From NCBI RefSeq assembly GCF_001050375.1, contig NZ_KQ130502.1, forward strand, positions 1 through 58,880: a DNA stretch of 58,880 nt. The letters run 5' to 3'. Both the position numbers and the translations under genes were made by a program. The first letter of the stretch is position 1. Every line of letters begins with the position of its first letter. This DNA is from Catenovulum maritimum (GTDB lineage: Bacteria > Pseudomonadota > Gammaproteobacteria > Enterobacterales > Alteromonadaceae). The notes under the pieces are model-generated. The model was not told where the DNA came from and made no database searches. It was given only the letters and a program-made list of their open reading frames with translations. Below are positions 4,622-56,538 of this stretch, piece by piece.

Positions 4622-4636
4622 GCCCTCAACGCGAGG

Positions 4637-5719: not shown

Positions 5720-5782
5720 GGTGTTCTGTTAACGATTAAATTAACTGTAGCATATACGCCCATATACATCTAAGCACATAAG

Positions 5783-6514: not shown

Positions 6515-6554
6515 TGCATTCTCTCAAATTAAACTTAGTACTCATCAAATATGG

Positions 6555-8075: not shown

Positions 8076-8083
8076 ATATACAC

Positions 8084-11091: not shown

Positions 11092-11148
11092 ATGAAAAAG
11101 ATCTTAAAAAATTAAGGCGCATTAATACATAATGCGCCTTAGGGTTAG

Positions 11149-14349: not shown

Positions 14350-14415
14350 GTATCTTCTAGTTAATTAAATTTATTATTTACATAGATTCTAGTTTTACCC
14401 AAAAACCTGTTTACA

Positions 14416-14453
14416 ATATTAAAACAATTAATATTTATAGTCAAACTGACCAT
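14416..14453 (-). promoter_or_regulatory. TonB receptor promoter with operator copy C
   Basis: On the minus strand TTGACT (14439-14444) is 17 bp from TAATAT (14416-14421), a near-consensus promoter ahead of the receptor gene. The site at 14437-14453, ATAGTCAAACTGACCAT on the plus strand, is the third copy of the 17-bp motif and provides the -35 box. The rest of the gap to the ThuA-like gene holds only the hairpin noted separately and AT-rich sequence. Confidence 0.6.
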
Positions 14454-14772
14454 TAAGTTATTTTTTAAGATAATAGATAGAATTTAGTCCATAAAGCTAG
14501 AATTTCAAATTTATATATTTTTATCCTGAACGAAAAACCATCCTAACATTTCATTTATTAAGTTTAAAATCAGATAGTTAACTTTAATTTTTATTTTTTT
14601 AATTGTTCTTGCTTTAGATATTAGTAGATAAAACTTTAAATACGAACCTTAATGTCAAAGATACATTAATGTTGGCGTAAATTGAAAAATATTATATTTA
14701 ACCTTACTCGAGATTAGAGGTTAACTAACTCAATCAGGTTATTTACTATAGTTTATCTGTTACAGATGAAAG

Positions 14773-14805
14773 CAAGATAAAGTGAGTAATTGCCACCTTA
14801 TCTTG
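14773..14805 (-). terminator. Hairpin terminator after the ThuA-like gene
   Basis: CAAGATAAAGTG (14773-14784) and CACCTTATCTTG (14794-14805) form a 12-bp stem with one wobble and a 9-nt loop on the minus-strand transcript. It separates the GH43-ThuA unit from the TonB receptor unit. The following T-tract is weak. Confidence 0.5.
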
Positions 14806-14834
14806 ATAGTTTTGATGTGAACGACTGAGTAAAT

Positions 14835-15578
14835 TTATTTAGCCGTAGCAGCCCAATAAATACCACCGAATAAATGATCTAGAAAATAAGAGTTACGATA
14901 GACAGCTGAGGTATGCCCTAATGCGGTGTAAAAGGATCTACCACCATCATAATATTGGTACCAAGCAATTGGATGAAAATTTCCCATTCCATGGCCAATA
15001 ACATCGCCCATGTTAGCTCTAGGCTCGTAGCTCGTCTCATCAACAGCTAATAAATAATTTAACTTATTAGATAACTCAGGTCCAAACTCATACCATTCAT
15101 CTGTCCATAATTGATTTTTGGGAAACCAAGATAAACCCGGAAAGTCATGATTGACTAAGTCCAATTTAGCGGTTTGAATTTCAGGGTGAACAATAAAGCG
15201 CCGGCCAACCAGTTTAGTGTACCAAGTCCAATTGTGTTCAGTATCTGATGCACTATGAATACCCACAAATCCCTTACCTCTTTGAATAAATTGCTTAAAG
15301 GCCTGCTTTTGAGTATGGTTAAAAACATCCCCACTGGTAGATAAAAAAACGATTGCATCAAATCGATTTAAATTTTCTTCGTTAAACTGGTTTGGGTCTT
15401 CATGCCACTCAAGATCAAAATGATGCTTTTCAGCTAGCTTTTTAATTGCCGTTACGCCGTCTAAAATAGATTCATGATGCCAAGCATTCGTTTTAGTAAA
15501 TAACATCACATTAAATTGTTTGGCCATTAGCTCCCCCATGAAAGTTAAATTGATAAATATAGCTAATACTAATTTCAT
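14835..15578 (-). CDS. ThuA-like domain protein (class I glutamine amidotransferase-like fold)
   Basis: The 247 residues carry a ThuA-like domain: FNVMLFTKTNAWHHESI at the start, FDAIVFLSTSGDVF, GKGFVGIHSASDTEHNW in the middle and GRSFYTALGHTSAVYRN near the end. This family is common in glycan-degradation loci and is often named after the rhizobial trehalose-utilisation gene, but biochemical activity is mostly undefined. The first 18 residues are hydrophobic and may form a weak signal peptide. An inner ATG at 15527, just after GGGGGAG, would give a cytoplasmic form. The start lies 9 bp after the GH43 xylosidase gene, so the two are an operon. A sugar oxidation or isomerisation role is only suggested by context. 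Confidence 0.75.
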   Translation of the reverse strand: MKLVLAIFINLTFMGELMAKQFNVMLFTKTNAWHHESILDGVTAIKKLAEKHHFDLEWHEDPNQFNEENLNRFDAIVFLSTSGDVFNHTQKQAFKQFIQRGKGFVGIHSASDTEHNWTWYTKLVGRRFIVHPEIQTAKLDLVNHDFPGLSWFPKNQLWTDEWYEFGPELSNKLNYLLAVDETSYEPRANMGDVIGHGMGNFHPIAWYQYYDGGRSFYTALGHTSAVYRNSYFLDHLFGGIYWAATAK

Positions 15579-15587
15579 AAATTCTCT

Positions 15588-17204
15588 TTAACAGCTTGTC
15601 TTTGAAGCCAATAGATTTTGATTCAATTCGGTATAAGAGAAGTACTCAAAATCAGCATAATGGTTTGAATGAGATAGATCTTGGCAACAAATTCCGATAA
15701 AAGCACCGGTAAAAGCAGCTTTATAAGCATTGCTATTTGAACAAACATAATCGTCAGAGAGAATCGACATATTCAATACATGTGGCATATTAATCCAATC
15801 AACTGCATCCAATGAATAAGCATAAACTAGTTCAGTGCCAACCACTTCACACCTAAGGTAAACGAAGACATTATCTGGTAATTCAATAGCTTGTGTAGGG
15901 TACTGAGTTAAAACTCTATTATTATAAGTTAAACAAACGAGTTCACGCTTGCCATCTTCTCTACCTTGAATCGCTAAATAGTGCCAATGAGTCGTGTTGT
16001 AATAACATACCAAACCTGCACTTTGCTGATAGCACGTTGGGGTAAAATCTATTTTAGTTTGCGCGAAAAATTCATGGTTTTGCACCCTTCTTGCTAACAA
16101 GCTTTGCTCGAAAGTTGAAGCCAAAGAGTCGCGCCCATAAAGTCGTAACCAATTATCACGCGCCTTTAAATCAGCCCATTGACTAGTGATGGGTTGGCGC
16201 AGCGAACTTAAATTAATGTCTAGGTTTTGGTTATCAAAATTGTCACACCAATCAATTGGCTGATATTTAGTCTCTACTGTGCCAATCTGTGGGATTACTT
16301 CACGCGCCAATTTATTGTTTGATTTAAGATGCAGCCAAGCATCATCTCCCCAATAAACTTGCTCAATAGCGGTTTCTCTTCCTAAAACACATCTTCTATT
16401 TTCACCTACTGGTCGACTAGTTAAAAATACCATGTACCAGTTACCATCTGCACCTTGGCAGATATCAGCATGTCCTGTTTTTTGCAATAAATTTTCAGTG
16501 TTAGCTTTTGCGGTTAAAATTGGATTATTCGGGTGAAATTCGTATGGGCCTGTTAATGACTTGGATCTCGCTATACTCACAGCATGATCATAACTAGTCC
16601 CACCTTCAGCTAGGATTAAATAATAAAACTCTCCTCTTTTGTATAAATGAGGACCTTCTGATAATCCAAGCTCTGAGCCCTTTGTAATTAGCACTTCATC
16701 ACCAATTAGCGATTGACGTTCTGGGCAATATTCCTGCAGCACTATTCCGCCAAACAATTTATTATTGCGATGATCAACTTTCATATTAACCAGCCATTTT
16801 TTGTCATCGTCATGAAATAACGAAGGGTCAAACCCTGAATGGTTAAGCTTTATTGGGCTTGACCAAGGGCCTGTTATATCAGAAGCTGTGATTAAATAGT
16901 TTGTTAAATCTTTCCAAGGACCATCAAAACTTTTTACTATGGTATAAACCAAATAATAAATACCATTAGAATATGACAAACAAGGTGCCCAAACCCCACA
17001 AGAATCAGGAATTCCTTTTAAATCGAGTAGCTGGTTATTATTTAGTGGATGGGTAATAAGATGCCAATTCACTAAGTCTGTCGAATGATGAATTTGAACA
17101 CCTGGAAACCATTCAAAAGTAGAAGTCGCGATATAATAATTTTCATCAACACATATAATCGAAGGGTCTGGATTAAACCCTCTCAAAATAGGATTACTCA
17201 GCAT
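15588..17204 (-). CDS. xynB: Glycoside hydrolase family 43 beta-xylosidase (two-domain, XynB-like)
   Basis: This 538-residue enzyme has the size and order of cytoplasmic GH43 beta-xylosidases such as SXA of Selenomonas. An N-terminal propeller (about 1-310) is followed by a C-terminal beta-sandwich (about 325-530) that closes the active site. The triad is visible: Asp13 in NPDPSI, Asp126 in GFDPSLF and Glu183 in LSEGPHLYK. STFEWFPGVQIHHSTDLVNW is a typical family signature. There is no signal peptide, so it should cut xylose from the non-reducing end of imported xylo-oligosaccharides. It shares an operon with the ThuA-like gene, and its promoter carries the strongest copy of the 17-bp operator inside a 15-bp-arm inverted repeat. 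Confidence 0.92.
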   Translation of the reverse strand: MLSNPILRGFNPDPSIICVDENYYIATSTFEWFPGVQIHHSTDLVNWHLITHPLNNNQLLDLKGIPDSCGVWAPCLSYSNGIYYLVYTIVKSFDGPWKDLTNYLITASDITGPWSSPIKLNHSGFDPSLFHDDDKKWLVNMKVDHRNNKLFGGIVLQEYCPERQSLIGDEVLITKGSELGLSEGPHLYKRGEFYYLILAEGGTSYDHAVSIARSKSLTGPYEFHPNNPILTAKANTENLLQKTGHADICQGADGNWYMVFLTSRPVGENRRCVLGRETAIEQVYWGDDAWLHLKSNNKLAREVIPQIGTVETKYQPIDWCDNFDNQNLDINLSSLRQPITSQWADLKARDNWLRLYGRDSLASTFEQSLLARRVQNHEFFAQTKIDFTPTCYQQSAGLVCYYNTTHWHYLAIQGREDGKRELVCLTYNNRVLTQYPTQAIELPDNVFVYLRCEVVGTELVYAYSLDAVDWINMPHVLNMSILSDDYVCSNSNAYKAAFTGAFIGICCQDLSHSNHYADFEYFSYTELNQNLLASKTSC

Positions 17205-17248
17205 GCTCTATTGCCTATAATTTATATTCATCTAAATCTATGTTAGGG

Positions 17249-17297
17249 ATTATACCACCAGAAACAATCTAATTGTCAAATAGACAATTAGATTGTT
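17249..17297 (-). promoter_or_regulatory. GH43 promoter inside a perfect inverted repeat, operator copy D
   Basis: Arms at 17263-17277 and 17283-17297 are perfect 15-bp inverted repeats with a 5-nt loop. The centre, ATTGTCAAATAGACAAT (17272-17288), is the fourth and most symmetrical copy of the xylan-locus operator. On the minus strand TTGACA (17274-17279) and TATAAT (17249-17254) form a promoter with a 19-bp spacer. The repeat also lies just after the sensor-kinase gene, so it could terminate that transcript. Confidence 0.65.
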
Positions 17298-17318
17298 GTT
17301 AACAGGTCAATTAATATA

Positions 17319-19250
17319 TCATTCAGTTGGAAGGGGCTTTAATTTAAGCGGTAAAGTAAAAATAAAGGTTAGTCCGTGGCCTAGTTTGCTGTTTGTTTTA
17401 ACTTTACCTTGCAGTGTTTGAGTAACTAAATTAAAGATGATGTTTAAGCCTAAACCTGAACCACCTTTGTTACGCAAAGTGGTATAAAAAGGCGCAAAGA
17501 TTTTATCTAAGTCTTCTTCATTTACACCTTTTCCTGAGTCTTTATAAGTAAAAATGAGTTTTTCACCTTCAACGGTAAAATCTATTGTTATGCTGCCTGA
17601 ATCATTTTGACTAAATCCATGACGTAAAGAATTAATCACCATGTTTGAAATGATTTGGGCATACGCGCCTGGGTAGCTATCCAACTGCAAACTATCATCG
17701 CCATTAATTTCGATCAACAAGTTATATTTCTTAGTTTCAGGTTGAAGGCTATGTAAAATTTCTTCAATATATTCTTTTAGCTTGAATCTGCGTAACTGCT
17801 CACTTGTGGAGTCAACCGCTATTTCCTTAAAATGTTGTATTAAAGATGAAGCCCTTTGGATATTATTTAAAATAATACTGAAACCTTCATCGACTTTACT
17901 GAAATAAGCTTCAAGAGACTTTCTGGTCATTTTGTTATCTTTATAAGCTTTCTCCATTACAACCAAATCACTTTGTAAACAGGTACCTGCCGTTAAACAT
18001 ATCCCTAATGGCGTGTTTATTTCATGTGCAACACCTGCAACTAATTGCCCTAACAATGACATTTTTTCAGTTTCTATTATATGTTGCTGGGCTAGAGTTA
18101 ATTGCTCCATTGCTTCTGATAATTCATTATTAGCTGTAATTAACTCTTGTGTTCTTTCATGAACTCTTCGCTCTAAATTCTCATGCTCAAGTTCAATTTT
18201 TCCGGCCATAGTAGCCAATAGAGTTATAATTTGCTCAATTTCGGAGAAATAAGCTTTTGGTGACTTAGGTTTATCCTCACCAGAAAAGTATGCTTGAACT
18301 AAATCTTGTAACTGCTTCAATGGTTTTAAAAAAATTAAAGCGATCCCCCAAGCAATGACCATAAAAACAGCGAGAAAAATGCCAGTTAGTGATAAAAAGC
18401 CTTGAGTTAACTCTGTCACCGGTTGAAACACTAACTCTCTTTTGAAATCAAATGCCAACACAAGCTCACTTGGGTATTCTGGAATTTCTAACTGACCAAT
18501 CAAAGTTAAAGCATCGTCGGTTATGACTTGTTGATTAGTCAGTATTGCTTGGTTATTAATACTGGCATTTGCTAAATAGGCTTCGTTTTGAGAAAACTTA
18601 ATCTCACTGAGTAAGTTCTCCATCGGTAATAAGGCGATTAAAAGCCCAGTGAATTCGGCAAATTCATCCGCTTTGGCAAGATCACTCAAAAATAAAGGGG
18701 CAACAAATACGATTAAATGATCACTTTGGTATTGCTTTGGCGCCAGATTCTTTTCACCTAGGTCTTTAACCAAACTAGGTGATTCTAGAATATGGGTTTG
18801 AGTTCGAGCTTGGTACCCTTGCTGATATAGAGCAGAAAAATAAGGGAACAGTGACTCTATTTCAAGTAGTTCAGCATAGAGTGGTGTTGCTGTGACAGTC
18901 CAATTATCTTGATCGACTAAGACCATGGCACTAATCATATCTTGTTCATCTAATATGACGGATAATTTTTCTCTCGCTTTGTTACTAAAGGTACCTGTCA
19001 TCGCAGCTAAACTAATCAAATTATCTTTCGCGGCTTGCTGAAATTTAGTATGGAAAGAAGATAACTTAAAGTTAATTAATTGCGTCACGTTGGTTGTTTC
19101 AACATTTAGCTTAGCTAATCTCTCTTTACCTTGTATTTCACTAAACTCACCAACCAGATAAAAGCTAACAACCAAGGCTGGCACGACAGATAATAAAAAT
19201 AATGCCAGAATCAATGAAGCTCTTAAACTTGCTAAAGGGTTAGTTATCAT
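17319..19250 (-). CDS. Membrane sensor histidine kinase
   Basis: The kinase has one N-terminal membrane helix (LILALFLLSVVPALVVSFYL), a periplasmic sensor region of about 270 residues, a second helix (FLSLTGIFLAVFMVIAWG), a linker with coiled coil (ERRVHERTQEL), an H-box with the phospho-accepting His in GVAHEINTPLG and a HATPase domain (NSLRHGF, DSGKGV, GGSGLGLNI). The start at 19250 is preferred because AAGG precedes it; an upstream ATG at 19283 lacks a ribosome site. It overlaps the stop of the binding-protein gene by 11 bp, so kinase and binding protein probably work as one sensor unit. No response regulator is encoded nearby; the target is unknown. Confidence 0.88.
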   Translation of the reverse strand: MITNPLASLRASLILALFLLSVVPALVVSFYLVGEFSEIQGKERLAKLNVETTNVTQLINFKLSSFHTKFQQAAKDNLISLAAMTGTFSNKAREKLSVILDEQDMISAMVLVDQDNWTVTATPLYAELLEIESLFPYFSALYQQGYQARTQTHILESPSLVKDLGEKNLAPKQYQSDHLIVFVAPLFLSDLAKADEFAEFTGLLIALLPMENLLSEIKFSQNEAYLANASINNQAILTNQQVITDDALTLIGQLEIPEYPSELVLAFDFKRELVFQPVTELTQGFLSLTGIFLAVFMVIAWGIALIFLKPLKQLQDLVQAYFSGEDKPKSPKAYFSEIEQIITLLATMAGKIELEHENLERRVHERTQELITANNELSEAMEQLTLAQQHIIETEKMSLLGQLVAGVAHEINTPLGICLTAGTCLQSDLVVMEKAYKDNKMTRKSLEAYFSKVDEGFSIILNNIQRASSLIQHFKEIAVDSTSEQLRRFKLKEYIEEILHSLQPETKKYNLLIEINGDDSLQLDSYPGAYAQIISNMVINSLRHGFSQNDSGSITIDFTVEGEKLIFTYKDSGKGVNEEDLDKIFAPFYTTLRNKGGSGLGLNIIFNLVTQTLQGKVKTNSKLGHGLTFIFTLPLKLKPLPTE

Positions 19251-20439
19251 TTTTTGCCTTAGCAGTGATCTTACGTTTTTCATACTGAGCTTTTTTATTC
19301 ATATATTTAGCTGCATTTTCCGCACTTAATTCTCCAGTTATATATAATTCTAAGCCTTTTTCAATACTGTCCCAAACTGAAGCCATCTCTGAAGAGGATG
19401 GCATAGGTTTACTCATTTTAAGTTGCTGTATGAACCATTTGAAGTTGTTCCCCCCATTTTCAACTAAGTCTTGCATCGCCTCTGAATGTGTCGGCATGGA
19501 TTGAGTTTCATGGTATACCCTTTTAGCAACTGCTTTTGATTGGACATACTCAGAAAATTTAATTAAAGCATCACGCTTATTAGAAGTTAATGACTGGTTA
19601 GGAAAAACAAGTAACAAAGCTGATTTCATTGAAACTATAGGTTTACCACTAATAGAAGGTAGCAGAGCAACCCCGAGATCATCACCTAACTCTTGATATA
19701 TACGGCTATATTCCCAATCACCGTTTATTGCGTATGCATATTCACCGGTTAAAAATGCCTCACGAGCACAGATATAACCACAGTTAATATCAAAAACTCG
19801 ATTGTCAGTATTTTTCTTAAAAAATTCTAAAGTTTTAATCATTTCGGGAGTATCTAAACTTAGATTATTACTTATCGCAAATTTAGGGTCAAAAGCGTTG
19901 AGAAAGCTAACAAATCCATAAGCAGAATAATAATCAAAAGCCAAAAATTTATATTGCTTATCAAGCATCTTTGACTGTTCTGTTAATTCCTGCCACGAAG
20001 CAGCAGGCTTTTCTACAATTCGTTTATTGTAATAAAGTACTAAGTGGTTACCATGCGTTAGTGGGATCCCGTAAGGAACCCCATTTTGGTAAACAAAAAA
20101 ATCTAGTTCAGGTAACAATGAATCTGAAAGTAAGCTAGAAGGGACTGAAGATAATTTAAAAATATTTTTAATACCTAAATTATCAGACTGGAAAAGCACC
20201 ATTTCAGGTGCTTTATTAGAAAATACAGCTTGAGATAGTGACGGATTTAAACTTTTCCATGGAATAATTGAAATTTGAATTTTAATATCTGGGTGTTGCT
20301 GCGAAAAATCATCTGCTATGGCTTGCCAAAATGATTTGGTGTAGCCTTGGCTATGCCATAATCTAAGCTCGGTTTTTGCCCATAAGTTGAAACTCGTTAC
20401 ACACAATACAATATATAAAAGCCAGCTTTTAAATTTCAT
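19240..20439 (-). CDS. Extracellular solute-binding protein family 1, paired with sensor kinase
   Basis: This 399-residue protein has a signal peptide (about 1-21, ending NLWAK) and a family 1 (MalE/UgpB-like) binding-protein body: LRLWHSQGYTKSFWQAIADDF, IKIQISIIPWKSL, YGIPLTHGNHLVLYYNK and FLTGEYAYAINGDWEY. Such proteins bind sugars or sugar phosphates for ABC import, but no permease or ATPase gene is present here. The coding region runs directly into the histidine-kinase gene, whose large periplasmic domain could dock it. This arrangement resembles LuxP-LuxQ and TorT-TorS in logic. The ligand is not known; a carbohydrate is likely given the family and setting. Confidence 0.82.
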   Translation of the reverse strand: MKFKSWLLYIVLCVTSFNLWAKTELRLWHSQGYTKSFWQAIADDFSQQHPDIKIQISIIPWKSLNPSLSQAVFSNKAPEMVLFQSDNLGIKNIFKLSSVPSSLLSDSLLPELDFFVYQNGVPYGIPLTHGNHLVLYYNKRIVEKPAASWQELTEQSKMLDKQYKFLAFDYYSAYGFVSFLNAFDPKFAISNNLSLDTPEMIKTLEFFKKNTDNRVFDINCGYICAREAFLTGEYAYAINGDWEYSRIYQELGDDLGVALLPSISGKPIVSMKSALLLVFPNQSLTSNKRDALIKFSEYVQSKAVAKRVYHETQSMPTHSEAMQDLVENGGNNFKWFIQQLKMSKPMPSSSEMASVWDSIEKGLELYITGELSAENAAKYMNKKAQYEKRKITAKAKNDN

Positions 20440-30931: not shown

Positions 30932-31107
30932 ATATAGTCACCACATTTTTAAATTTTCAGGTAAATTAATAAGGCTAACGCTTATTTAAAACCAAGCGTT
31001 TACAGTATTTTTAACCAATGCTACTACACAATAGTTAAATGTTAACAATAATTTCAAAACCCTATACATTTAGTAACCTTTTAAATCTAGACGTTTTAAG
31101 GACAATA

Positions 31108-32508
31108 ATGAAATATTTAAGCCTGATATTAATTAGTCTTGGTTGGTCGCAAATAAGCTTTGCTGCGCCGCCAAGTGGTGAGCAAGTTTACCGACAATAT
31201 TGTGCTGGTTGCCATGGAGCCCAGTTACAAGGTGGATTAGGTGCAAACTTAGTTGACGACACTTGGTTACACGGTGATAGCGAAGGCGCCATTATCAAAA
31301 CAATCAAAAACGGTGTTTTAGACAAAGGTATGCCTGCATTTTCAGCTGGCTTAGCGCCAGAGCAAATTAAATTGGTCGCACAATTTATTAAATCGCAGAA
31401 TGACACGCCGAGTTCAGGTAAATTAGCTGAACAAAATAAATCCGTGACCAGCGAACACTACCAGTTTGATTTAAAATTACTAACTGTATTTGACAGCCTG
31501 ACTTGGGCGATCACTTTTATCAATGATCAAGAATATCTAGCTACCGAGCGAGATACAGGTAATCTTTATTACGCTAATATTAATGGTACTTATCGCACCA
31601 TTAAAGGTACACCTCAGGTTTGGAATAACGATCAAGGCGGAATGCTTGATATTGCACTAGACGTAAACTTTGCTGAAAACCAAACCATATATTTAGCTTA
31701 CGCGAAAGAAAATGTAAATGACAATTGGCAACAGCCAAAAGGCATGACAGCAATACTTAAAGCTCGAATTGAAGGCGATAAGTTAGTTGATAAACAGGAA
31801 ATCTTCAGCGTAGATGATGCTTTCGCCCTCCCATCTGGCCGCCATTTTGGTTCGCGTATCGTTGTGGATGATAAATACCTATACTTTTCAATCGGTGAGA
31901 GAGGCGTGCGCCCTGATGCACAAGATCTAACTAAGCCCAATGGTAAAATTCATCGCATACATTTAGATGGTTCAATACCATCTGACAACCCGTTCGACCG
32001 AGCTAACGCATATAAAAGCATTTGGACTTATGGCAACCGTAACCCACAAGGTTTAGCCAGACATCCAAGTACAGGTGAAATATGGTCTACCGAACATGGA
32101 CCTAAAGGCGGAGATGAAATTAATCTAATTTCTAAAGGTTTAAATTATGGCTGGCCTGTGATTACCTATGGTTTAAATTACGACGGCACCTCAATGACAG
32201 ATAAAACACATATGCCGGGAATGGAACAACCAATACGCTATTATGTACCATCAATCGCAACTGGCGGAATCGATTTTTACCACGGAGAAAAGTGGTCAAA
32301 ATGGCAAAATAACATGCTTGTAACGGGTATGGGCGCTCAAGAGTTACGTCGCGTAAAAATAGTAAATAAACAAGTCGTTGAAGAAGAACTATTAGTGAAA
32401 GACTTCGGCCGAGTGCGAGATGTAGCAGTTAGCCCATCAGGTGATATTTACATTATGATCACACGTGATCATAAAGGCCATATGTATAAACTGGAACAAA
32501 GAAACTAA
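31108..32508 (+). CDS. Cytochrome c-PQQ aldose dehydrogenase fusion
   Basis: This 466-residue secreted protein has a signal peptide (about 1-19, ending ISFAA). Next comes a class I cytochrome c domain (about 22-105) with CAGCH and a distal Met in KGMPAFSAGL. A six-bladed quinoprotein sugar dehydrogenase domain of the YliI/sGDH family follows (about 118-462: TERDTGNLY, GRHFGSRIVVDDKYLYFSIGER, YGNRNPQGLARHP, EHGPKGGDEINLI, NYGWPVITYG). It would oxidise aldoses in the periplasm and pass electrons to its own haem. The start at 31108 is chosen because AAGGA lies 5 nt upstream and it gives a proper signal peptide. It is divergent from the TRAP operon. Confidence 0.88.
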   Translation: MKYLSLILISLGWSQISFAAPPSGEQVYRQYCAGCHGAQLQGGLGANLVDDTWLHGDSEGAIIKTIKNGVLDKGMPAFSAGLAPEQIKLVAQFIKSQNDTPSSGKLAEQNKSVTSEHYQFDLKLLTVFDSLTWAITFINDQEYLATERDTGNLYYANINGTYRTIKGTPQVWNNDQGGMLDIALDVNFAENQTIYLAYAKENVNDNWQQPKGMTAILKARIEGDKLVDKQEIFSVDDAFALPSGRHFGSRIVVDDKYLYFSIGERGVRPDAQDLTKPNGKIHRIHLDGSIPSDNPFDRANAYKSIWTYGNRNPQGLARHPSTGEIWSTEHGPKGGDEINLISKGLNYGWPVITYGLNYDGTSMTDKTHMPGMEQPIRYYVPSIATGGIDFYHGEKWSKWQNNMLVTGMGAQELRRVKIVNKQVVEEELLVKDFGRVRDVAVSPSGDIYIMITRDHKGHMYKLEQRN

Positions 32509-39073: not shown

Positions 39074-40882
39074 ATGAGCAGTTGTCCCTACCCTCGTTGG
39101 CAAAAATCGAAAATATTTTTGCTGATCACAAGTCCACTGTGGGCTTATCAATCGCAAGCAGCACAATGTGAGTTTTCTGTTGCGAATGAATGGCAAAATG
39201 GATACACAGGTAAACTAGTCATCACCAACGACAGCAATGATGTGATTGAAGGTTGGCAAGTTGAATTAGCATTTAGTCAAAACGAAACGATTGGCAGTTC
39301 ATGGAGTTCTAACTTAACTGGCAGTAATCCGTATTTTTTCACCAACAAAAGTTGGAATGCAAAGATCAACCCCGGCGAGTCCAAATCCTTTGGGTTTAAC
39401 GGAACAAAAATCAATGGATCAATTGTCTCTCAGCCTGAGTTACGTGGTGTGTGTGATAGTACTGGTGGTGACAACGACGATACCCCTTTTTCTATTGAAA
39501 TTAATGCTTCAACATTATCCGGTGTAGCGCCTTTAACTGTTGATTTTACTTCGCAAGTTGCAGGTGCGAGCGATGATGGAGTCGAGTACCTTTGGCGTAT
39601 TGCTGATGAATCAATCGCAGTTACGAAAAATGCACAACACACCTTTGATACTGCTGGGATATATATAGTTACTCATATTGCCTCAAGTGGTGAGCAAGCA
39701 CTAGAGTCACAACTAACCATAGAAGTTGAAGAGCCGCAGCCTGAATCAGCCCAGTGTCAACTAACCATTGAGCAAGAGTGGAACTCGGGTTTTAGAGCAC
39801 GAGTTGATATTAGCAATACGGCTAATCAAACCATCGATGGCTGGCAAGTGTTAATGCAGTTTGAAGATTCAACTAAAATTACCGGCGTTTGGCATGGTAA
39901 TCATACAGGCAGTAATCCATATACTATCGTTAACGAACAGTACAACCCGACTATAGCAGCAGGACAAACCATTAATTTTGGTTTTAATGCTGCAAAACCG
40001 GTTCCTGACACAGTACCAACAATTCCAGCGTTAGGCGGACTATGTTCGTTTGACGGCACCATAAATAATGCACCAAGGGCAGTTTCGACCGCTTCTGTGA
40101 CTTCTGGCGAAGGGCCGTTAAGTGTCACCTTCAATGCTAATCAATCAACGGATATTGACGGTGATGAATTAACTTATCTTTGGGATTTTGGCGATGGTAA
40201 CTCGTCAACAGAGATGCAGCCTACTCACATTTACCCAGCACAAGGTAATTATGTAGTTAACTTAACGGTCAACGATGGTGCGGTCAGTTCAAGCACCGAA
40301 CCGTTAACCATTTCTGTATCAGAGCCACAAATAAGTCTGCCATATGTATTAGATAGCAATAACTCATCGCTTTATTTTGTTTCTACCAAAAAAGAACACA
40401 CGGTTGAAACTCACACATTCCGCACTTTATCTGGCGATATTTCACTCGATGGTGATGCTAGGCTATCAATTGACTTAAGTAGTGTTGATACCGGCGTTGA
40501 AACTCGCGATGGTCGCATGAAGGAACATTTATTTGACATCAATACTTATCCGCTAGCGCAAGTTAGTTTGTCGTTAGATTACGATACGGTTAAAGCGGTT
40601 CCAGCAGGTACAACGCAAGAAATGGAGATTAGTGCGACGTTAAATTTGTATGGCGTTGATATCCAAATCGATACTCAAGTGCAAGTAAGCCGTTTGTCTT
40701 CATCACGTATTTTGGTACAAAACATTCAACCTATCTTATTAAATGCAACAGATTTTGGCCTCGAAGCAGGTATCGAAACCTTAAGAACCTTAGCAAATTT
40801 AACTTCGATAAGTTATGCCGTGCCAGTGAACTTTAATTTAGTGTTCCAAACACAAGAACCAGTACAAGCAGGCGAGGAGTAA
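39074..40882 (+). CDS. Secreted CBM2-PKD-CBM2-PKD-YceI protein
   Basis: This 602-residue protein has a signal peptide (about 1-30). A CBM2 follows (32-127, bounded by Cys32 and Cys127; W61, W77 and W94 are likely cellulose-binding residues), then a PKD-like domain (138-220), a second CBM2 (228-324, Cys228/Cys324, with Tyr290 in place of the third Trp), a PKD domain (333-417, YLWDFGDGN) and a C-terminal YceI-like lipocalin domain (422-592). There is no enzyme domain. YceI-like domains bind isoprenoid quinones, and CBM2-YceI proteins occur in cellulolytic relatives such as Cellvibrio and Saccharophagus. A redox-carrier role bound to cellulose is plausible but inferred. It ends 4 bp before the next gene. 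Confidence 0.85.
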   Translation: MSSCPYPRWQKSKIFLLITSPLWAYQSQAAQCEFSVANEWQNGYTGKLVITNDSNDVIEGWQVELAFSQNETIGSSWSSNLTGSNPYFFTNKSWNAKINPGESKSFGFNGTKINGSIVSQPELRGVCDSTGGDNDDTPFSIEINASTLSGVAPLTVDFTSQVAGASDDGVEYLWRIADESIAVTKNAQHTFDTAGIYIVTHIASSGEQALESQLTIEVEEPQPESAQCQLTIEQEWNSGFRARVDISNTANQTIDGWQVLMQFEDSTKITGVWHGNHTGSNPYTIVNEQYNPTIAAGQTINFGFNAAKPVPDTVPTIPALGGLCSFDGTINNAPRAVSTASVTSGEGPLSVTFNANQSTDIDGDELTYLWDFGDGNSSTEMQPTHIYPAQGNYVVNLTVNDGAVSSSTEPLTISVSEPQISLPYVLDSNNSSLYFVSTKKEHTVETHTFRTLSGDISLDGDARLSIDLSSVDTGVETRDGRMKEHLFDINTYPLAQVSLSLDYDTVKAVPAGTTQEMEISATLNLYGVDIQIDTQVQVSRLSSSRILVQNIQPILLNATDFGLEAGIETLRTLANLTSISYAVPVNFNLVFQTQEPVQAGEE

Positions 40883-40886
40883 AACA

Positions 40887-43800
40887 ATGAGATTAATTAA
40901 CCTTCAAAACTTGTTTTGCCGCGAAACAAATAATACAGCGAATATTAAGTCGGCTCGTTTACCTGTTCTATTACTGACTGGAATCGGATTACTATCGCAG
41001 AACCTGTATGCAGCAAGCTGTGAATTTTCCATACCAGATAATTGGAACACTGGATTTAAAACGGAAATTATCATTCAAAATGACGATACAGCCAAAAACG
41101 ACTGGACACTCAACCTTACTTGGCCAGAAGGCGTTTCAATTAATAATGGTTGGAATGCAACATATAGTTGCACGGATACTGGATGTACGATTACCAAGCA
41201 AAATACCAATTCCATCCTAAACCCAAATGAAAGATTAGGGCTTGGTTTTGTCGCCAGTAGAAATGGTTACAATGGTGAAATTGAACTGACACTAAGCGGT
41301 GATATTTGCGATGGCGTTACAGGCACATCACCAGGTTCAGATAACGCTAATGATGGCAATAATAGCGAGGACAACCAAATCGACACAGGCTTGTGGTCGT
41401 TAAATGGAGACACTTCATTACTCACTTACGTATCTGTGAAAAAGTTACACACAGCAGAAGTCAATGAATTTCAAGGGAATGACGTAAACGGCCATGCATT
41501 ATCGGGTAGTATTGATCTGGATGGTAATGTGGTGTTAGCGGTTAACTTAAATAACATAGAAACCGGCGTTGATATTCGTAACAGTCGAGTCGTGGATTTA
41601 TTATTCGCCACCGAGCTTTTGCCTACTGCCTATTTCACCACGCAAATAGACACGTCTCAAATCTCTGCCATGCCAACAGGCGATATTGCGACTCAAACAG
41701 TGACCGGTGATTTAACTATTCACGGTGTCAGTCAGCCGATTTCATTAGACTTATTAGTGACTAAACTCGGGGTTGGCACAGTTAAAGTATCAACATTACG
41801 CCCACTGGTAGTTAACAGTAATAGTTTCGATATGGCTTATGGTATTGAAGCTTTGCGTGTGGTTGCAGGATTATCTGGAATTGGTGAAACAGTTCCCGTT
41901 TATTTCGACTTACAATTTACATCTGTGAATACGAATGATTTTGTTCAAACTAAGAAAGCAGAAGCGCCTATCGCACCAGACAGTCTAGTGGTGCAGTATG
42001 AACCATCGGACAATCAAGCGCACTTAAATTGGCGCGACAACAGTAATAATGAAACATCTTATCTTGTTAGGCGCCAAGCCCTAGGTGGTGATTGGCACAC
42101 AGTGGCTGAGCTTGCAGCCAGTGCAACTTTAATGTCCGAAGGTTTACCTGATACCGGCGAATTTAACTATAAAGTCATTGCGCTTAACCAAAGTGTACCT
42201 TCTTTACCAACAGAAGCAGTCACAGTAACAGTGACTGAAACCAATGCTATCGCCAGAGGAATGGAACAATTCAACGCCAACTGTGCCGGATGTCATGGTT
42301 CAGAGGGCGGCGGTTTAGGCAGTTTCCCTGCGTTAAATACCGAACGAAATGTCGACGCCATGATTGAAACTATCGCCCGGACAATGCCATATAGCAATCC
42401 AGCATCTTGTGATCAGCAATGTGCAGAAGACATTGCTGCATATATCCAAACTTTATGGCCTACCACATTAACTTGTGATGTCGGTGTTACGCCTGTTGCC
42501 TATGGGGCAAGACAACTCAAGATCCTGACTCAACGTGAGTACCAAAATACAGTTGAAGATTTGTTGAATGTGGATTATCACGTTGCCGATGGCCTGTCGC
42601 CAGACAGCCAAGTGGGCTTTTTCACAAACAATACTCACACAAGTGTATTGTCCACCACATATAACAATTATTTGTTGGTGGCAGAAGAACTTGCACAATG
42701 GTCGGCTAATCAGAGTTTCTCCAACCTCTTATCATGTGCAGCTATCGATGAAAGTTGTGCTTCAGCGCTCATCACTGATGTCGCACCAAAGATATTTAGA
42801 CGTCCATTAACGCCAGATGAACAAAGTACCTATGAATCAATAGCATTAGGTACATTCAATGGTGGCGATATTGCCGCAGGCATGCAGTTGGCGTTAGAGG
42901 GTTTATTATCTTCGCCACAGTTTATTTATCGTCATGAGTTAGGTGAAGCTAATCTTGATAATCCAGAGCTGGACAACGATGCCTTTGAGTTAACGTCTTA
43001 CGAAATGGCGACATTTTTAGCTTATACCTTTACAGGCACCACGCCCGACGATGAATTGCTAGCAGCTGCCGCCAATGATGAACTTCGAGATGAAGACAAG
43101 ATAATGCAACACGCAGCTAGATTAGCTTCGAGCGCTGAAGGTGTTTTAGCTGACTTTATTGGCAGCTGGCTAGGTACAGCGGATTTAGAAGTTGCAGCAA
43201 AAGACGAAACTTTATATCCAAATTATCAAGAATTAGTACCGCATATGAAAGCAGAACTAAATAAAACTTTCGCTTGGATCATGATGCAACAGGATGAACG
43301 TTTTGAGTCTCTCTATACGGCTAATTACACTTTCTTAAATGAAACACTTGCAAATCACTATGGTATCGCTGGTGTGACAGGGCAAGAAATGCAAAAAATT
43401 GATACATCAAACCGTGGTGGTATTTTAGCTAACGGCGCGTTTATGGCGCGCTGGGCCGAAGCCGCCGAATCACACCCAGTCATTCGTTCAGTGCGTGTTC
43501 GTCGTCGAATGTTGTGTCAAGATCAACCCGATCCACCAGCTGGTACGTTTGCTGCTCGCGACGAAAAACTTGCCGAGTTGTCTGAGTTCTTGCAACAGCC
43601 AACAACCACCAACCGTGCTAAATATCACGCGTTAACAGTAGAAAGTCCTTGTAGCAGTTGTCATGCTGAGTACATAAATCCACTTGGGTTTGGTATGGAA
43701 GACTTTGATGCAGTAGGTAATATTCGTAGCAGCGACATCAAGGGTAACCAGATTGACGCTTCGGGCGCTTTGTACGCACCAGAAAGCTACGCTGATCTTG

Positions 43801-44099
43801 ATTCTGTCTTTAGCTTTTACGGTACTCAGGGATTAGCTAACCTGATGGCAGGATTAGATTCATCTCAAACTTGTTTAACACAACAAATGTTCCGTTATGC
43901 AATCGGAGTAGGACATAATGAAATTGATCCTAATAATCCAGAGGATGCAAGCTTATCGGAAACAGAACATGCGGGTTATTTATGTGAAATCGACACGCTA
44001 AAAGACAAGATGGCAAACGAAAGTCCAAGAGCCATGCTAGAGAACTTTGGTTATCTAAAATCAGTTAGATATCGCAAAGCTTGGTCAAGAGATGAATAA
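40887..44099 (+). CDS. Secreted CBM2-YceI-Fn3-cytochrome c-DUF1592-type multidomain protein
   Basis: The order over 1070 residues is: signal peptide (1-43), CBM2 (about 45-141), YceI-like domain (168-345), Fn3-like domain (about 360-448), cytochrome c (about 455-530, haem motif CAGCH at 466-470), then DUF1587 (LTQREYQNTVEDLL, about 545), DUF1595 (RRPLTPDEQSTY), DUF1592 (QFIYRHELGE), DUF1588 (NRGGILANGAFMARWAEAAE; second haem motif CSSCH at 922-926) and DUF1585 (about 950-1065). It is a cellulose-targeted multi-redox protein. GAGGAG in the end of the previous gene is its ribosome site, so the two are coupled. Electron transfer to an extracellular oxidase such as an LPMO is a hypothesis from similar Cellvibrio proteins. 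Confidence 0.85.
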   Translation: MRLINLQNLFCRETNNTANIKSARLPVLLLTGIGLLSQNLYAASCEFSIPDNWNTGFKTEIIIQNDDTAKNDWTLNLTWPEGVSINNGWNATYSCTDTGCTITKQNTNSILNPNERLGLGFVASRNGYNGEIELTLSGDICDGVTGTSPGSDNANDGNNSEDNQIDTGLWSLNGDTSLLTYVSVKKLHTAEVNEFQGNDVNGHALSGSIDLDGNVVLAVNLNNIETGVDIRNSRVVDLLFATELLPTAYFTTQIDTSQISAMPTGDIATQTVTGDLTIHGVSQPISLDLLVTKLGVGTVKVSTLRPLVVNSNSFDMAYGIEALRVVAGLSGIGETVPVYFDLQFTSVNTNDFVQTKKAEAPIAPDSLVVQYEPSDNQAHLNWRDNSNNETSYLVRRQALGGDWHTVAELAASATLMSEGLPDTGEFNYKVIALNQSVPSLPTEAVTVTVTETNAIARGMEQFNANCAGCHGSEGGGLGSFPALNTERNVDAMIETIARTMPYSNPASCDQQCAEDIAAYIQTLWPTTLTCDVGVTPVAYGARQLKILTQREYQNTVEDLLNVDYHVADGLSPDSQVGFFTNNTHTSVLSTTYNNYLLVAEELAQWSANQSFSNLLSCAAIDESCASALITDVAPKIFRRPLTPDEQSTYESIALGTFNGGDIAAGMQLALEGLLSSPQFIYRHELGEANLDNPELDNDAFELTSYEMATFLAYTFTGTTPDDELLAAAANDELRDEDKIMQHAARLASSAEGVLADFIGSWLGTADLEVAAKDETLYPNYQELVPHMKAELNKTFAWIMMQQDERFESLYTANYTFLNETLANHYGIAGVTGQEMQKIDTSNRGGILANGAFMARWAEAAESHPVIRSVRVRRRMLCQDQPDPPAGTFAARDEKLAELSEFLQQPTTTNRAKYHALTVESPCSSCHAEYINPLGFGMEDFDAVGNIRSSDIKGNQIDASGALYAPESYADLDSVFSFYGTQGLANLMAGLDSSQTCLTQQMFRYAIGVGHNEIDPNNPEDASLSETEHAGYLCEIDTLKDKMANESPRAMLENFGYLKSVRYRKAWSRDE

Positions 44100-44125
44100 C
44101 CGTTTGAGCTGCAAAGGAAATTATC

Positions 44126-45352
44126 ATGAATAAAGATCAATTAAATAAATTAGCAATGTCACGTCGCAGCTTGTTAAGAATGGTTGCAGCCTCTGGCATA
44201 TCAAGTACGTTAATTCGCACTTCCCCGCTTGTTTCAGGTATGTTGTTCTCGCGACATGCAGACGCCCAAGAGGCTGGGTTACCGAATAAAACCATTAGCA
44301 TTTTTACGCCAGGTGGCGCGATTGCCGACCTATGGAATCCAACAGGAACCGGCGATGATATGGTAATGGGGGCAATGTCACATGGCTACAATTCGGTAAA
44401 AAACGAATGTAACTTCTTGGTGAACATGTCACACGGCAATGCGGGTCACGGTCGTATGCCTATCATTTGCGCAAAAGAATGGAATAGTGACAGTTACGAC
44501 GTCATTATGGGTAATGCATTAGGACCGGATATGCCATTTCGTTACATCAACTTAGGTGTGCATAGTAACGGTGCTAACTACATGACTAAAGATAATAAAA
44601 ACCGGATACCATTTCAGGATAACCCTTTTACTGTGTTCGATTTAGTTTTTGGTTCTAGCCAAGGCAGCAGCGCAAAAACGCCAATCATGAATGCTCATGT
44701 ATCTGCGGCAAATGCCATTCGTAGTAAATTAGCAGGTTATGAAGTGCAAAGAATGGATGACCATTTAGATGCTATCGCTGACACTCAACGTCGTTTGGAT
44801 GAATTATCCGGTGGCACAAGTTGTAGCATAGCACCTAGCAATACCGAATTCGCACTAACCCATGATAATTTCTCCCTGCAAGCTCGAATGCAAGCAGATA
44901 TTGCGGTTGCAGCATTACAATGCGGATTAACCCGTTCGGTTTCTTTGGCGTATGGCAATAGTCAATGCGACTTCAGAATTCCAGAACTAAGCTATCAAGG
45001 CGTATATCATCAGTCGATACATGGTGGTAGCGGTGGTAAAGCAAATTACCCGTATTACACTGAAATGCGTAGCCATATGGCGAGTTATAACGCGTATTTA
45101 ATCCAAAAGCTTAAAACAGCTGGTATTTTGGACAGCACAGTAGTGCTGGAAACCACAGACATGGGCCACGCTGATACCCATTCAGCAAGCCCAGTGGCTT
45201 ATACCATTGCCGGAGGTGGGACAAGAATTAACCGTGGCGTAGTAACAAACGCTGGTACTGGTTATGATCATCACGATGTGCTGTATACAGCAGCTCAAGC
45301 ATGTGGTGTCGATATTGGCTTTGGTAAAGAAATTCCGGGTGTAATCGCTTAA
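44126..45352 (+). CDS. DUF1552 protein with Tat-type signal
   Basis: The 408 residues begin with a twin-arginine style leader (SRRSLLRMVAASG, about 13-25), so export is probably of a folded, cofactor-containing protein. The body matches DUF1552: ISIFTPGGAIADLWNPTG, SHGNAGHGRMPIICAKEW, VLETTDMGHADTHSASPVAYTIAGGG and a C-terminal YDHHDVLYTAAQACGV. DUF1552 genes habitually follow DUF1592-type cytochrome genes, as here (26-bp gap, AAAGGAAA ribosome site). The domain resembles alkaline-phosphatase/sulfatase-like folds, but no activity is known. It closes the three-gene operon; a hairpin terminator follows. Confidence 0.85.
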   Translation: MNKDQLNKLAMSRRSLLRMVAASGISSTLIRTSPLVSGMLFSRHADAQEAGLPNKTISIFTPGGAIADLWNPTGTGDDMVMGAMSHGYNSVKNECNFLVNMSHGNAGHGRMPIICAKEWNSDSYDVIMGNALGPDMPFRYINLGVHSNGANYMTKDNKNRIPFQDNPFTVFDLVFGSSQGSSAKTPIMNAHVSAANAIRSKLAGYEVQRMDDHLDAIADTQRRLDELSGGTSCSIAPSNTEFALTHDNFSLQARMQADIAVAALQCGLTRSVSLAYGNSQCDFRIPELSYQGVYHQSIHGGSGGKANYPYYTEMRSHMASYNAYLIQKLKTAGILDSTVVLETTDMGHADTHSASPVAYTIAGGGTRINRGVVTNAGTGYDHHDVLYTAAQACGVDIGFGKEIPGVIA

Positions 45353-45374
45353 ACCTATACTAATCCAAAATTCA

Positions 45375-45398
45375 AAAAGGGCTGAAAAGCCCTTTTAT
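45375..45398 (+). terminator. Terminator of the CBM2/DUF1592/DUF1552 operon
   Basis: AAAAGGGCT (45375-45383) and AGCCCTTTT (45388-45396) form a 9-bp stem with a GAAA tetraloop and a short T run. Confidence 0.75.
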
Positions 45399-45420
45399 TG
45401 GTAAATGTATATTCCACTCT

Positions 45421-45486
45421 AAATCCGCAGCCTTTCCGAACGAAATCTGCACCGCTTCCGTTTCAAATCTGCAAGCTTTCCGCTCA
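45421..45486. repeat. Three 22-bp imperfect tandem repeats
   Basis: Units starting at 45421, 45443 and 45465 read AAATCCGCAGCCTTTCCG, AAATCTGCACCGCTTCCG and AAATCTGCAAGCTTTCCG, each followed by four variable bases. They lie in the gap between the DUF1552 terminator and the small membrane protein gene. No frame across them stands out. Confidence 0.6.
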
Positions 45487-45587
45487 GAATTGGCGACTAA
45501 AAACGGCTGCCTAGACAACCGTGAAGAAATATTGTTGGGATTCGCTTTCGCTTATCACATGGATGGCTTATTAGCTTGGTTAATTTA

Positions 45588-45947
45588 TTATTGAGTATCA
45601 TGAATCCAATACCTATGATCCCTCATTAAAATATGCCCATCTTCTAAGTTTTTTGTTCCGACCCTTAAATTAAAACTCTTACCAGAAAGTTCTTGCTGAT
45701 ATTGCCAAGTTTTATCACCCGCTATAGGGGCGGGGATATTACTAAATATTTTTTTCCCAAGATCCTGTAAATTAATTGGGTAAAAACCATTTTTCTTTTT
45801 ATATTCTTCTAAATGTTTGACTATATCATCACCTCTTTTCATGGATTCTTGGACAGATTGGGAAGACCAGTTTTCATAAGGCACAAAGAACGCATAAATA
45901 ATTAATGAAAATATGAAAATAATTAGACTTAAATAAAGTTTTTTCAC
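45588..45947 (-). CDS. Small membrane-anchored protein downstream of an RHS tip
   Basis: This 119-residue protein has one N-terminal hydrophobic helix (LYLSLIIFIFSLIIYAFFV) and a soluble part containing ILKHLEEY-like IVKHLEEYKKKNGFYPINLQDLG, a pattern shared with pseudopilin-like small proteins. It begins 13 bp after the RHS fragment on the same strand. In RHS systems that place usually holds an immunity gene, and a membrane anchor would suit one, but there is no recognisable immunity family. Function is unknown. Confidence 0.55.
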   Translation of the reverse strand: MKKLYLSLIIFIFSLIIYAFFVPYENWSSQSVQESMKRGDDIVKHLEEYKKKNGFYPINLQDLGKKIFSNIPAPIAGDKTWQYQQELSGKSFNLRVGTKNLEDGHILMRDHRYWIHDTQ

Positions 45948-45959
45948 AATTTACATCTC

Positions 45960-46619
45960 TTAATAGCCAGACGATTTTACATCGTCATCATTAATGTATT
46001 TAGGTAAATTTTGATTCACTCTCGAATCACTTGAACTAATGATAATATTTCCAGCTTTAAGTGCATTTTGTATACTACCTTTTATATCACTAACACCTTT
46101 AACTGATGAGCCGATTGACTGGCCAACTTTATTATTAAATTGATCTATTTGGCTGTCTTGGCTTTTTTCTTCACCTAACTCATGTAAGTTACCTATAGTT
46201 TTAGCTTGATCAAGCCCTTCCTCTATAGTTAGAGATGCTTGCCAAGCAACATGTCTTACACCATTTTTAAATTCCATCCTTTGAGTGGTTGTCATATTTT
46301 CAACTCCAGGCTGCTCAGAAAGAAGTTCACTTGCAAGCCCCCTAGCAAAGTCATTATGTTTACCAAATGCGGCTTGATAAGCATCAATTGGACCCACGGT
46401 TAAAACCCCTCCTATAACTTCTCTCATTTCATTGACAGTTCCAGCAGCCCTTCCATCAGGGTCAACATATTTATATGGATTATTATTGGCGTATGCATAC
46501 CGATTAAAGCCTTGAATATTCCCTTTAGCTAAAAACTCAACAGAGCCCACAGGATCATTCGAATAAAACCGCCCAATGACTGGATCATAATATCGTGCCT
46601 GCATATAAAGTAATTGCAA
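45960..46619 (-). CDS. RHS-repeat protein C-terminal fragment (orphan tip)
   Basis: The reading frame opens inside the RHS core: YMQARYYDPVIGRFYSNDPVG and NRYAYANNNPYKYVDPDGR are the last core motif, which normally ends a protein of more than 1000 residues. The 160 residues after DPDGR are a variable tip with NGVRHVAWQASLTIEEG, as in some polymorphic toxin ends. All upstream YD repeats are missing; the frame is closed by a stop 10 codons before the proposed TTG start (an ATG follows at 46604). It is either a displaced tip left after RHS recombination or a remnant. YhaV lies immediately upstream, which marks the breakpoint. Confidence 0.7.
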   Translation of the reverse strand: MQLLYMQARYYDPVIGRFYSNDPVGSVEFLAKGNIQGFNRYAYANNNPYKYVDPDGRAAGTVNEMREVIGGVLTVGPIDAYQAAFGKHNDFARGLASELLSEQPGVENMTTTQRMEFKNGVRHVAWQASLTIEEGLDQAKTIGNLHELGEEKSQDSQIDQFNNKVGQSIGSSVKGVSDIKGSIQNALKAGNIIISSSDSRVNQNLPKYINDDDVKSSGY

Positions 46620-54969: not shown

Positions 54970-56538
54970 ATGATAAGTTTTAAAACAATTACAAAAGCAA
55001 GCCTACTAATCACTTCATTGACCTTAATTGCGTCCTGTAGTCAGGAACCTAAAAACGTTTCAAGTGATAAAACTGATATAGATAAACCTAATTTAGTTAT
55101 CTTTTATGTCGACGATTTAGGCTGGGGTGACCTTAGTAGCTACGGCGCAACTAAGGTTCAAACGCCTAATGTAGATGCTTTAGCAAATAATGGCATTCGA
55201 TTTACAGATGGGCATTCATCTGCAGCCACTTGTACACCATCTCGATACTCTTTATTAACCGGTGAGCATGCATTCAGAAAAGGTGTCAAGATTTTAAAAG
55301 GTGATGCTGCTATGGTTATCTCACCAGAGCAAAATACATTACCGAAAATGCTCAAAGAAAATGGCTACAAAACCGCTGTTGTTGGCAAGTGGCATTTAGG
55401 TTTAGGTGATGGTGTCACTCCTATAGATTGGAACGAGGCAGTTAAACCTGGACCACTCGAAATAGGTTTCGATTATAGTTTTCTTCTACCTGCTACAGGC
55501 GACAGAGTTCCAACCGTATACTTAGAAAACCATCATGTGTTAAATTTAACCAAGGATGATCCGCTTTATGTTAATTATGACCATAAAATAGGACAAAGAC
55601 CTACGGGTTATGAAAACCCGGAGTTATTAAGACAAGGGGCTGATGATCAACATGGTAAAACCATTATCAATGGCATTAGCCGAATTGGTTGGATGCAAGG
55701 TGGTAAGTCGGCTGAATGGGTAGATGAAGATTTTCCACAAGTAACAACAGATAAGGCTAATGACTTTATCAGCCAAAATAAGAATGATCCATTTTTCTTA
55801 TTCTTTTCGTTTCATGATATTCACGTACCTAGACTACCAAACAAACAATTTGAAGGTGCAACCGATATGGGCGTTAGGGGTGATGCGATTGTTCAAATGG
55901 ATTGGATAACAGGTGCAGTTGTTGATCATCTTAAAAAGCTTAATTTATTAGATAGCACCATAATCATTTTCACCAGTGATAACGGCGCAGTATTAACCGA
56001 TGGTTATGATGATAAAGCGCTAACATTAATTGACGACCATAAACCAAATGGAGCTTTTAACGGCGGTAAATACAGTGCATTTGAAGGCGGCTCAAGAGTA
56101 CCATTTATTGTTCACTACCCTAAAGCGGTAAAATCAGGTGTCAGCAACACATTGTTTAGCCAAATTGATGTTTATGCTTCTATGGCGAGTCTATTAAAGC
56201 ATCCGCTAGAGACTAATGAAGCAATTGATAGTATTGATCATCTAACTGCTATGTTTGATGCCAGTAAACCAGCTCGTGATACTTTAATAGAAGAAACGCC
56301 GTTTACATTATCGCTCAGAGATGGCGACTGGAAGTACATTCGTCCTGCCAAGAAAGTTCCAGGCTGGGTTAAATCTAACAAGAATATTGATAGTGGCATT
56401 TCTGTTAAGCCTCAATTATTTAACCTAAAAGATGATCCATCTGAGTTAGTAGACTTAGCTATGAAACATCCAGAGATAGTTTCAAAACTAGAAAGTAAAA
56501 TACAACAAATTGAAAACCAAAATAAGAGAAGTCAATAA
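54970..56538 (+). CDS. Lipoprotein sulfatase (S1 formylglycine-dependent)
   Basis: The 522-residue enzyme has a lipoprotein signal (lipobox LIASC, Cys23) and the S1 sulfatase fold. NLVIFYVDDLGWGDLSSYG holds the metal-binding aspartates (Asp48, Asp49). SAATCTPSRYSLLTGEHAF holds the formylglycine motif C-T-P-S-R at Cys88. VVGKWHLGLGD and FTSDNGAVLTDG hold further catalytic Lys/His and Asp/Asn. It should remove sulfate esters from a marine glycan at the cell envelope after activation by an anaerobic or FGE-type maturase not seen here. The divergent LacI gene suggests sugar control. The sulfatase subfamily and substrate cannot be set by eye. Confidence 0.9.
   Translation: MISFKTITKASLLITSLTLIASCSQEPKNVSSDKTDIDKPNLVIFYVDDLGWGDLSSYGATKVQTPNVDALANNGIRFTDGHSSAATCTPSRYSLLTGEHAFRKGVKILKGDAAMVISPEQNTLPKMLKENGYKTAVVGKWHLGLGDGVTPIDWNEAVKPGPLEIGFDYSFLLPATGDRVPTVYLENHHVLNLTKDDPLYVNYDHKIGQRPTGYENPELLRQGADDQHGKTIINGISRIGWMQGGKSAEWVDEDFPQVTTDKANDFISQNKNDPFFLFFSFHDIHVPRLPNKQFEGATDMGVRGDAIVQMDWITGAVVDHLKKLNLLDSTIIIFTSDNGAVLTDGYDDKALTLIDDHKPNGAFNGGKYSAFEGGSRVPFIVHYPKAVKSGVSNTLFSQIDVYASMASLLKHPLETNEAIDSIDHLTAMFDASKPARDTLIEETPFTLSLRDGDWKYIRPAKKVPGWVKSNKNIDSGISVKPQLFNLKDDPSELVDLAMKHPEIVSKLESKIQQIENQNKRSQ

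Follow-up and report, generated by a model that had tools for sequence, protein, structure and literature searches.

The stretch analyzed here (the window) comprises positions 1 to 58,880 of contig NZ_KQ130502.1 from Catenovulum maritimum (RefSeq assembly GCF_001050375.1). The host is a marine Catenovulum, an agar-degrading genus whose species are known chiefly for algal polysaccharides, and its genome is 99.99% complete. We focused on three genes, all on the (+) strand and spanning 39074–45352, whose open reading frames (ORFs) of 602, 1070, and 408 amino acids (aa) are separated by spacers of 4 and 26 bp, in agreement with the operon proposed in an initial annotation. This arrangement is not due to chance, because identical genes in identical order recur in other genomes; in the counterpart locus of C. 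agarivorans YM01, the product of the second gene is 87% identical. The second gene ends in a haem-bearing block known as X132 and the third encodes a DUF1552 protein, and across the loci that we compared these two are a constant core, while the partner module varies. The genes (P1 to P3) and their features are as follows:

39074–40882, (+) strand: P1, Cbp2E-type, 602 aa; CBM2, PKD, CBM2, PKD, YceI; signal-peptide-like start (judged by eye)
39161–39448, (+) strand: first CBM2 of P1 (Pfam)
39749–40039, (+) strand: second CBM2 of P1 (Pfam)
40343–40846, (+) strand: YceI/X158 domain of P1 (Pfam; match to the Saccharophagus degradans X158 structure 2x34, 1.5e-48)
40887–44099, (+) strand: P2, Cbp2D-type, 1070 aa; CBM2, YceI, FN3-position domain, X183-type cytochrome, X132
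41013–41309, (+) strand: N-terminal CBM2 of P2 (Pfam)
41460–41918, (+) strand: YceI/X158 domain of P2 (Pfam; 2x34 match, 2.7e-23)
42246–42446, (+) strand: X183-type cytochrome c of P2 (matches to 8q1w, 4.2e-10, and 7b21, 1.7e-5; CAGCH at 42282–42296)
42474–44096, (+) strand: X132, i.e., the PSD3-PSD5-PSD4-PSCyt3 block of P2 (Pfam; predicted structure mostly helical)
43650–43664, (+) strand: X132 haem motif CSSCH (CxxCH in 57/57 aligned sequences)
44126–45352, (+) strand: P3, DUF1552 protein of the twin-arginine translocation (Tat) type, 408 aa; predicted alkaline-phosphatase/sulfatase fold
45375–45396, listed on the (−) strand: terminator-like hairpin 3′ of P3 (6 such sites versus 5.8 expected by chance)

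P1 had been described as a CBM2/YceI protein, and both domains are present; Pfam in fact finds two CBM2 modules (2.8e-45) and two PKD domains along with the YceI domain (9.5e-16). In P2, matches above the Pfam cut-offs comprised CBM2 (8.9e-15; 55.3 bits versus a cut-off of 24), YceI (7.2e-14), cytochrome c (2.1e-10), PSD3/DUF1587, PSD5/DUF1595, PSD4/DUF1592 (5.7e-33), and PSCyt3/DUF1588 (1.4e-24). Together with DUF1552 in P3, these bear out the domain list of the initial annotation except for its last piece, PSD2/DUF1585, which scored 13.1 bits, under the Pfam cut-off of 25.8, and is unconfirmed. Both annotated haem motifs are exact (CAGCH at residues 466–470 and CSSCH at residues 922–926), and Met500 of the cytochrome is invariant in 9/9 aligned sequences. 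The segment between YceI and the cytochrome gave no Pfam FN3 match, and a window-family profile of the YceI-cytochrome segment matched the equivalent place in Cbp2D of Cellvibrio japonicus with 78 bits. CBM2 modules bind cellulose, chitin, or xylan, and a CBM2 profile search of the host genome placed all three of its CBM2 domains in this operon and none outside.

The X132 block was predicted with a pLDDT of 93.5, and the model had no match in the PDB at E ≤ 0.001. Since Pfam detects the identical PSD3-PSD5-PSD4-PSCyt3 block in C. japonicus Cbp2D, the X132 module of CAZy and this planctomycete-type block are one family. In a tree of 57 X132 rows, whose long branches leave the deep part unsure, the YceI types require four changes, at least two of them forced by strong branches. 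The window's X132 groups with YceI types from Alteromonadales and other Gammaproteobacteria in a strong branch of 17 rows, with the C. japonicus-type rows separate, and on account of this tree we call the window's set the same kind as Cbp2E/Cbp2D rather than a proven ortholog.

How constant is the association of X132 with DUF1552? The fetched loci and the window hold 54 YceI-type X132 genes, four of which repeat a place, leaving 50 distinct places. A DUF1552 gene lies downstream in 48 of the 50, C. japonicus included, and the remaining two stop at contig ends. A Cbp2E-type gene lies upstream, likewise in 48/50, with one miss at a contig end (L155) and one real (L157). In the window's family (196 genomes), DUF1592 occurred at 28 places, and each of the 25 full-length ones adjoined a same-strand DUF1552 gene (24 downstream and one upstream); the other three are fragments or weak (G073, G160, and the second place of G178), with no adjoining DUF1552 listed. 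A 26th DUF1552 place (G153) is below the cut-off and stands alone. The prediction that the DUF1552 gene matters was thus well placed, as it proves the most constant partner.

The partner module was surveyed in 97 fetched X132 proteins, a count that leaves out the window and the four repeats, with Pfam run on 14 of them. They come from loci L033–L117 and L148–L167 (search loci L118–L147 lie outside the counts); the latter set was hand-picked, some for a Cellvibrio-like look, and the locus scan favours close relatives, so that all counts describe the fetched loci. YceI was present in 49, a glucose/sorbosone dehydrogenase (GSDH) domain, a type that uses pyrroloquinoline quinone, in 15, and GH5 in three. 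All 18 GSDH- or GH5-type proteins have DUF1552 (as two split ORFs in L052), and their fetched stretches contain no YceI gene, L091 and L094 having almost no upstream DNA. YceI domains and the sugar dehydrogenase therefore appear to fill one slot. Seven giant X132 proteins of 2188–2372 aa (L041, L045, L049, L052, L053, L055, and L056) carry GSDH and are each followed by DUF1552; the one in L045, the only one of them scanned with Pfam, also bears four starch-binding CBM26 modules, making a starch counterpart possible.

P3 itself matches DUF1552 (PF07586) with 120.7 bits against a cut-off of 30 (1.2e-34). As initially annotated, it is predicted to be exported by the Tat pathway, with a twin-arginine stretch (SRRSLLR) close to its start; a twin-arginine pair lies ≤60 residues before the domain in 83/85 X132-adjacent DUF1552 genes (repeats counted). 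Its predicted structure shares the fold of the alkaline phosphatase superfamily (sulfatases, ENPPs, and LtaS), and the conserved residues are H108, D125, H213, H295, H299, D/E345, and H352. The HXXSHH motif, which we take to be what the family's name refers to, is not intact in P3, where HQSIH stands at 295–299; among 59 sequences the outer histidines are kept in 59 and 56, and position 298 is Ile in 37.

The fold raises the question of whether DUF1552 is an ordinary hydrolase, sulfatase- or phosphatase-like, that de-esterifies algal polysaccharide while the haem proteins do something else. The fold matches are indeed sulfatases and phosphodiesterases, and the window holds a true sulfatase-family gene at 54970–56538. 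In contrast to the superfamily, however, an alignment of DUF1552 revealed no conserved residue that would be a candidate nucleophile at the expected place: no Ser, Thr, or Cys reaches 75% at residues 65–200 in the 59 sequences. Position 63, where the fold would presumably place a metal-binding Asp (an expectation made without superposition), is Gly in P3 and Gly, Asp, or Asn in 30, 11, and 8 of the 59, respectively. In addition, almost all DUF1552 places that we saw have a haem protein as the partner. We consider the hydrolase explanation quite improbable.

The initial annotation had linked proteins of this kind to the reduction of lytic polysaccharide monooxygenases (LPMOs), in which case the complex would supply electrons to AA10 LPMOs on cellulose. 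It had named the lack of an LPMO or other extracellular oxidase in the genome as an outcome that would refute its reading. A search of the host genome for AA10 (PF03067) gave no match, other extracellular oxidases not having been searched for, while the same model found two matches in C. japonicus (G249). In the sample of the window's family, LPMOs occur in 41/196 genomes and are missing from 8/9 genomes with the three-gene operon, the host among them (G147 has one); the Fisher p value of 0.69 indicates no association rather than avoidance. Among 31 named genomes with YceI-type operons, four of which are also in the family sample, 21 have an LPMO and 10 do not, the latter including C. agarivorans YM01, Alteromonas sp. 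KUL49, and metagenome-assembled genomes, some of them small. An LPMO is therefore not needed for the operon, though often present.

Other data favor the LPMO link. Of 144 genomes from the family of Teredinibacter waterburyi, 41/46 with X132 have an LPMO versus 49/98 of the others (Fisher p = 3e-6, with an X132 cut-off of E 1e-130 or better chosen after the list was seen), although both may simply mark polysaccharide degraders. The isolated X183 of C. japonicus reduces two LPMOs, slowly (PMC8981238, cited, as are all papers here, from the accessible part of its text), and PMC13227985 treats the LPMO-reductase role as given. On the other hand, T. turnerae X183 domains failed to supply LPMOs with electrons (PMC10916295), and deletion of cbp2D or cbp2E harms growth on cellulose more than deletion of lpmo10B does; the authors of the latter work propose direct cleavage by a Cbp2D/Cbp2E heterodimer (PMC12542752). 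We regard LPMO reduction as a distinctly unlikely role.

As initially envisaged, the best reading remains an extracellular electron chain fixed to polysaccharide. In its present form, an even call in our view, this is an anchored relay that would deliver electrons to a core of X132 and DUF1552 working independently of LPMOs. The operon would make a secreted redox complex, its members probably in physical contact, with P1 and P2 held by their CBM2 modules to cellulose or another insoluble polysaccharide like it. By homology to the ubiquinone-binding X158 structure, the two YceI domains may bear a polyisoprenoid quinone and act as electron input or shuttle; we take them as the input because they and the sugar dehydrogenase appear to occupy the same slot. 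The X183-type cytochrome would then hand electrons on to the haem of X132. The terminal catalytic core would consist of X132 and DUF1552, the latter as the constant partner with an alkaline-phosphatase fold and a His-rich conserved set, and this core may act directly on the polysaccharide or its ends rather than via an LPMO.

The two haem motifs and quinone-type domains would also suit a cytochrome conduit at the cell surface, by which the cell would dock on fibres and move respiratory electrons out or in, without polysaccharide chemistry; long-range electron transfer is likewise raised in the work on T. turnerae (PMC10916295). However, no conserved partner conduit is seen, since any one flanking gene family turns up in at most 9 of the 33 operon loci (most shared families being unannotated). 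Moreover, a conduit leaves the constant DUF1552 partner unexplained, and the growth defect of C. japonicus mutants was confined to cellulose among the substrates tested (PMC13227985). We therefore judge electron disposal or anchoring to be quite unlikely.

Several points weigh against the anchored relay, in addition to the slow LPMO reduction by X183 and the co-occurrence in the Teredinibacter family described above. The 48 places with DUF1552 are not independent events, as many are close Pseudoalteromonas strains. X132 and DUF1552 distances correlate closely (r = 0.96, 41 loci), as expected for any co-inherited genes. As many as 30 of the 97 X132 proteins carry none of YceI, GSDH, or GH5; a DUF1552 neighbour is present in 29 of these, the exception (L114) lying 1,207 bases from a contig end. 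The true substrate is also unsure, because profile searches of the host genome found no GH9 match and only one marginal GH5 above the cut-off (another fell below it). Finally, tests of a dehydrogenase-like domain from an X132 protein of T. turnerae detected neither activity nor cofactor binding (PMC10916295), which makes GSDH less convincing as an electron donor.

We know of no bacterial counterpart of cellobiose dehydrogenase. A bolder version of the anchored relay, which we hold to be fairly unlikely, is that X132 and DUF1552 are a new class of LPMO-independent oxidative polysaccharide-cleaving enzyme, in which a c-haem domain for which we found no solved relative would cooperate with a metal centre rich in His, carried by an alkaline-phosphatase fold. 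Interchangeable electron donors would serve it: in the window the YceI quinone pair, and in other loci a sugar dehydrogenase or a multi-haem chain linked to GH5. If true, this would explain why cbp2D/E outweigh the LPMO in C. japonicus, and the PSCyt3-DUF1552 pairs of other bacteria would gain a first role.

Next, we considered the surroundings of the operon. A (+)-strand gene 6.5 kb upstream (31039–32508) encodes a cytochrome c fused to GSDH (2.9e-111) and could be an electron donor, because GSDH is also fused to X132 in 15/97 relatives. Farther upstream, a sugar-utilization block (3490–20439) contains two GH43 genes (one with a beta-xylosidase C-terminal domain), a TonB receptor, three tryptophan-halogenase-family genes in tandem, ThuA, and an NrtR/AraR-type regulator. 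An Rhs-like end fragment with DUF6973, the Rhs label resting on a reading of the sequence, adjoins the operon on the (−) strand (45960–46619), and the C. japonicus locus has one like it nearby (L148:12449–13054). The GC content is 0.41–0.44 in the 2-kb steps of 40001–46000, which cover most of the operon, and 0.33–0.41 in the remaining steps of the window. In other loci, a DUF2214-like membrane protein gene lies upstream of cbp2E (L148:3562–4194; 31.6 bits versus a cut-off of 34.1 for the only copy scanned), with relatives near the operon in 9/33 loci and none adjoining that of the window. A related pair of small secreted-looking proteins lies just 3′ of DUF1552 in 6/33 loci (L073, L079, L085, L089, L157, and L159).

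Among known systems, the closest is Cbp2E/Cbp2D of C. japonicus, which has the gene order found here (CBM2 and YceI, then CBM2, YceI, cytochrome, and X132). Cbp2D is described as CBM2, X158/YceI, FN3, X183, DUF1587, and X132 (PMC8981238), so that the fusion of CBM2-YceI-cytochrome with the DUF1592 block, to which the initial annotation drew attention, is not new. Locus L148 is tied to cbp2D by its cytochrome, which matches the 7B21 chain over 90 residues and differs solely at the last aligned residue. Differences from the window include an X132 that is 40% identical and sits on another tree branch, the two CBM2-PKD pairs of P1, and the lack of an AA10 match in the Catenovulum host. A DUF1552 gene (106 bits versus a cut-off of 30) lies 47 bp 3′ of cbp2D; the accessible parts of PMC8981238 and PMC12542752 do not mention it with Cbp2D/E. 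The gene comparison made here suggests that the heterodimer model misses a third member.

T. turnerae TERTU_3803 and TERTU_2913 share X183 cytochromes and X132 with P2, and TERTU_3803 also CBM2 along with CBM10, but they carry X122 and, in TERTU_3803, dehydrogenase-like modules in place of YceI (PMC10916295). PSCyt3/PSD proteins of Verrucomicrobia share the PSD and PSCyt3 domains, but are predicted to be periplasmic or cytoplasmic and are not linked to Cbp2D in the accessible text of PMC5615132, which states that PSCyt3 genes usually adjoin a family of unknown genes. DUF1552 is indexed three times for that paper, outside its main text, and the bare PSCyt3-DUF1552 pairing may already be known in print, perhaps in its supplement. 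The DUF1501-DUF1800 pair is likewise conserved, with one Tat-exported member of unknown function, but belongs to other families and lies near chitin synthase genes (PMC5122149). The tie of the PSCyt3-DUF1552 pair to Cbp2D/E is what we found nowhere in the literature searched. What Cbp2D/E do is a question that published work leaves open (PMC8981238, PMC12542752), and the presence of DUF1552 beside Cbp2D/E-type genes wherever checkable, together with genomes that retain the three genes but have no AA10 match, makes it a tractable one and links the X132 module of CAZy with the PSCyt3 and DUF1552 families, which are likewise unexplained.
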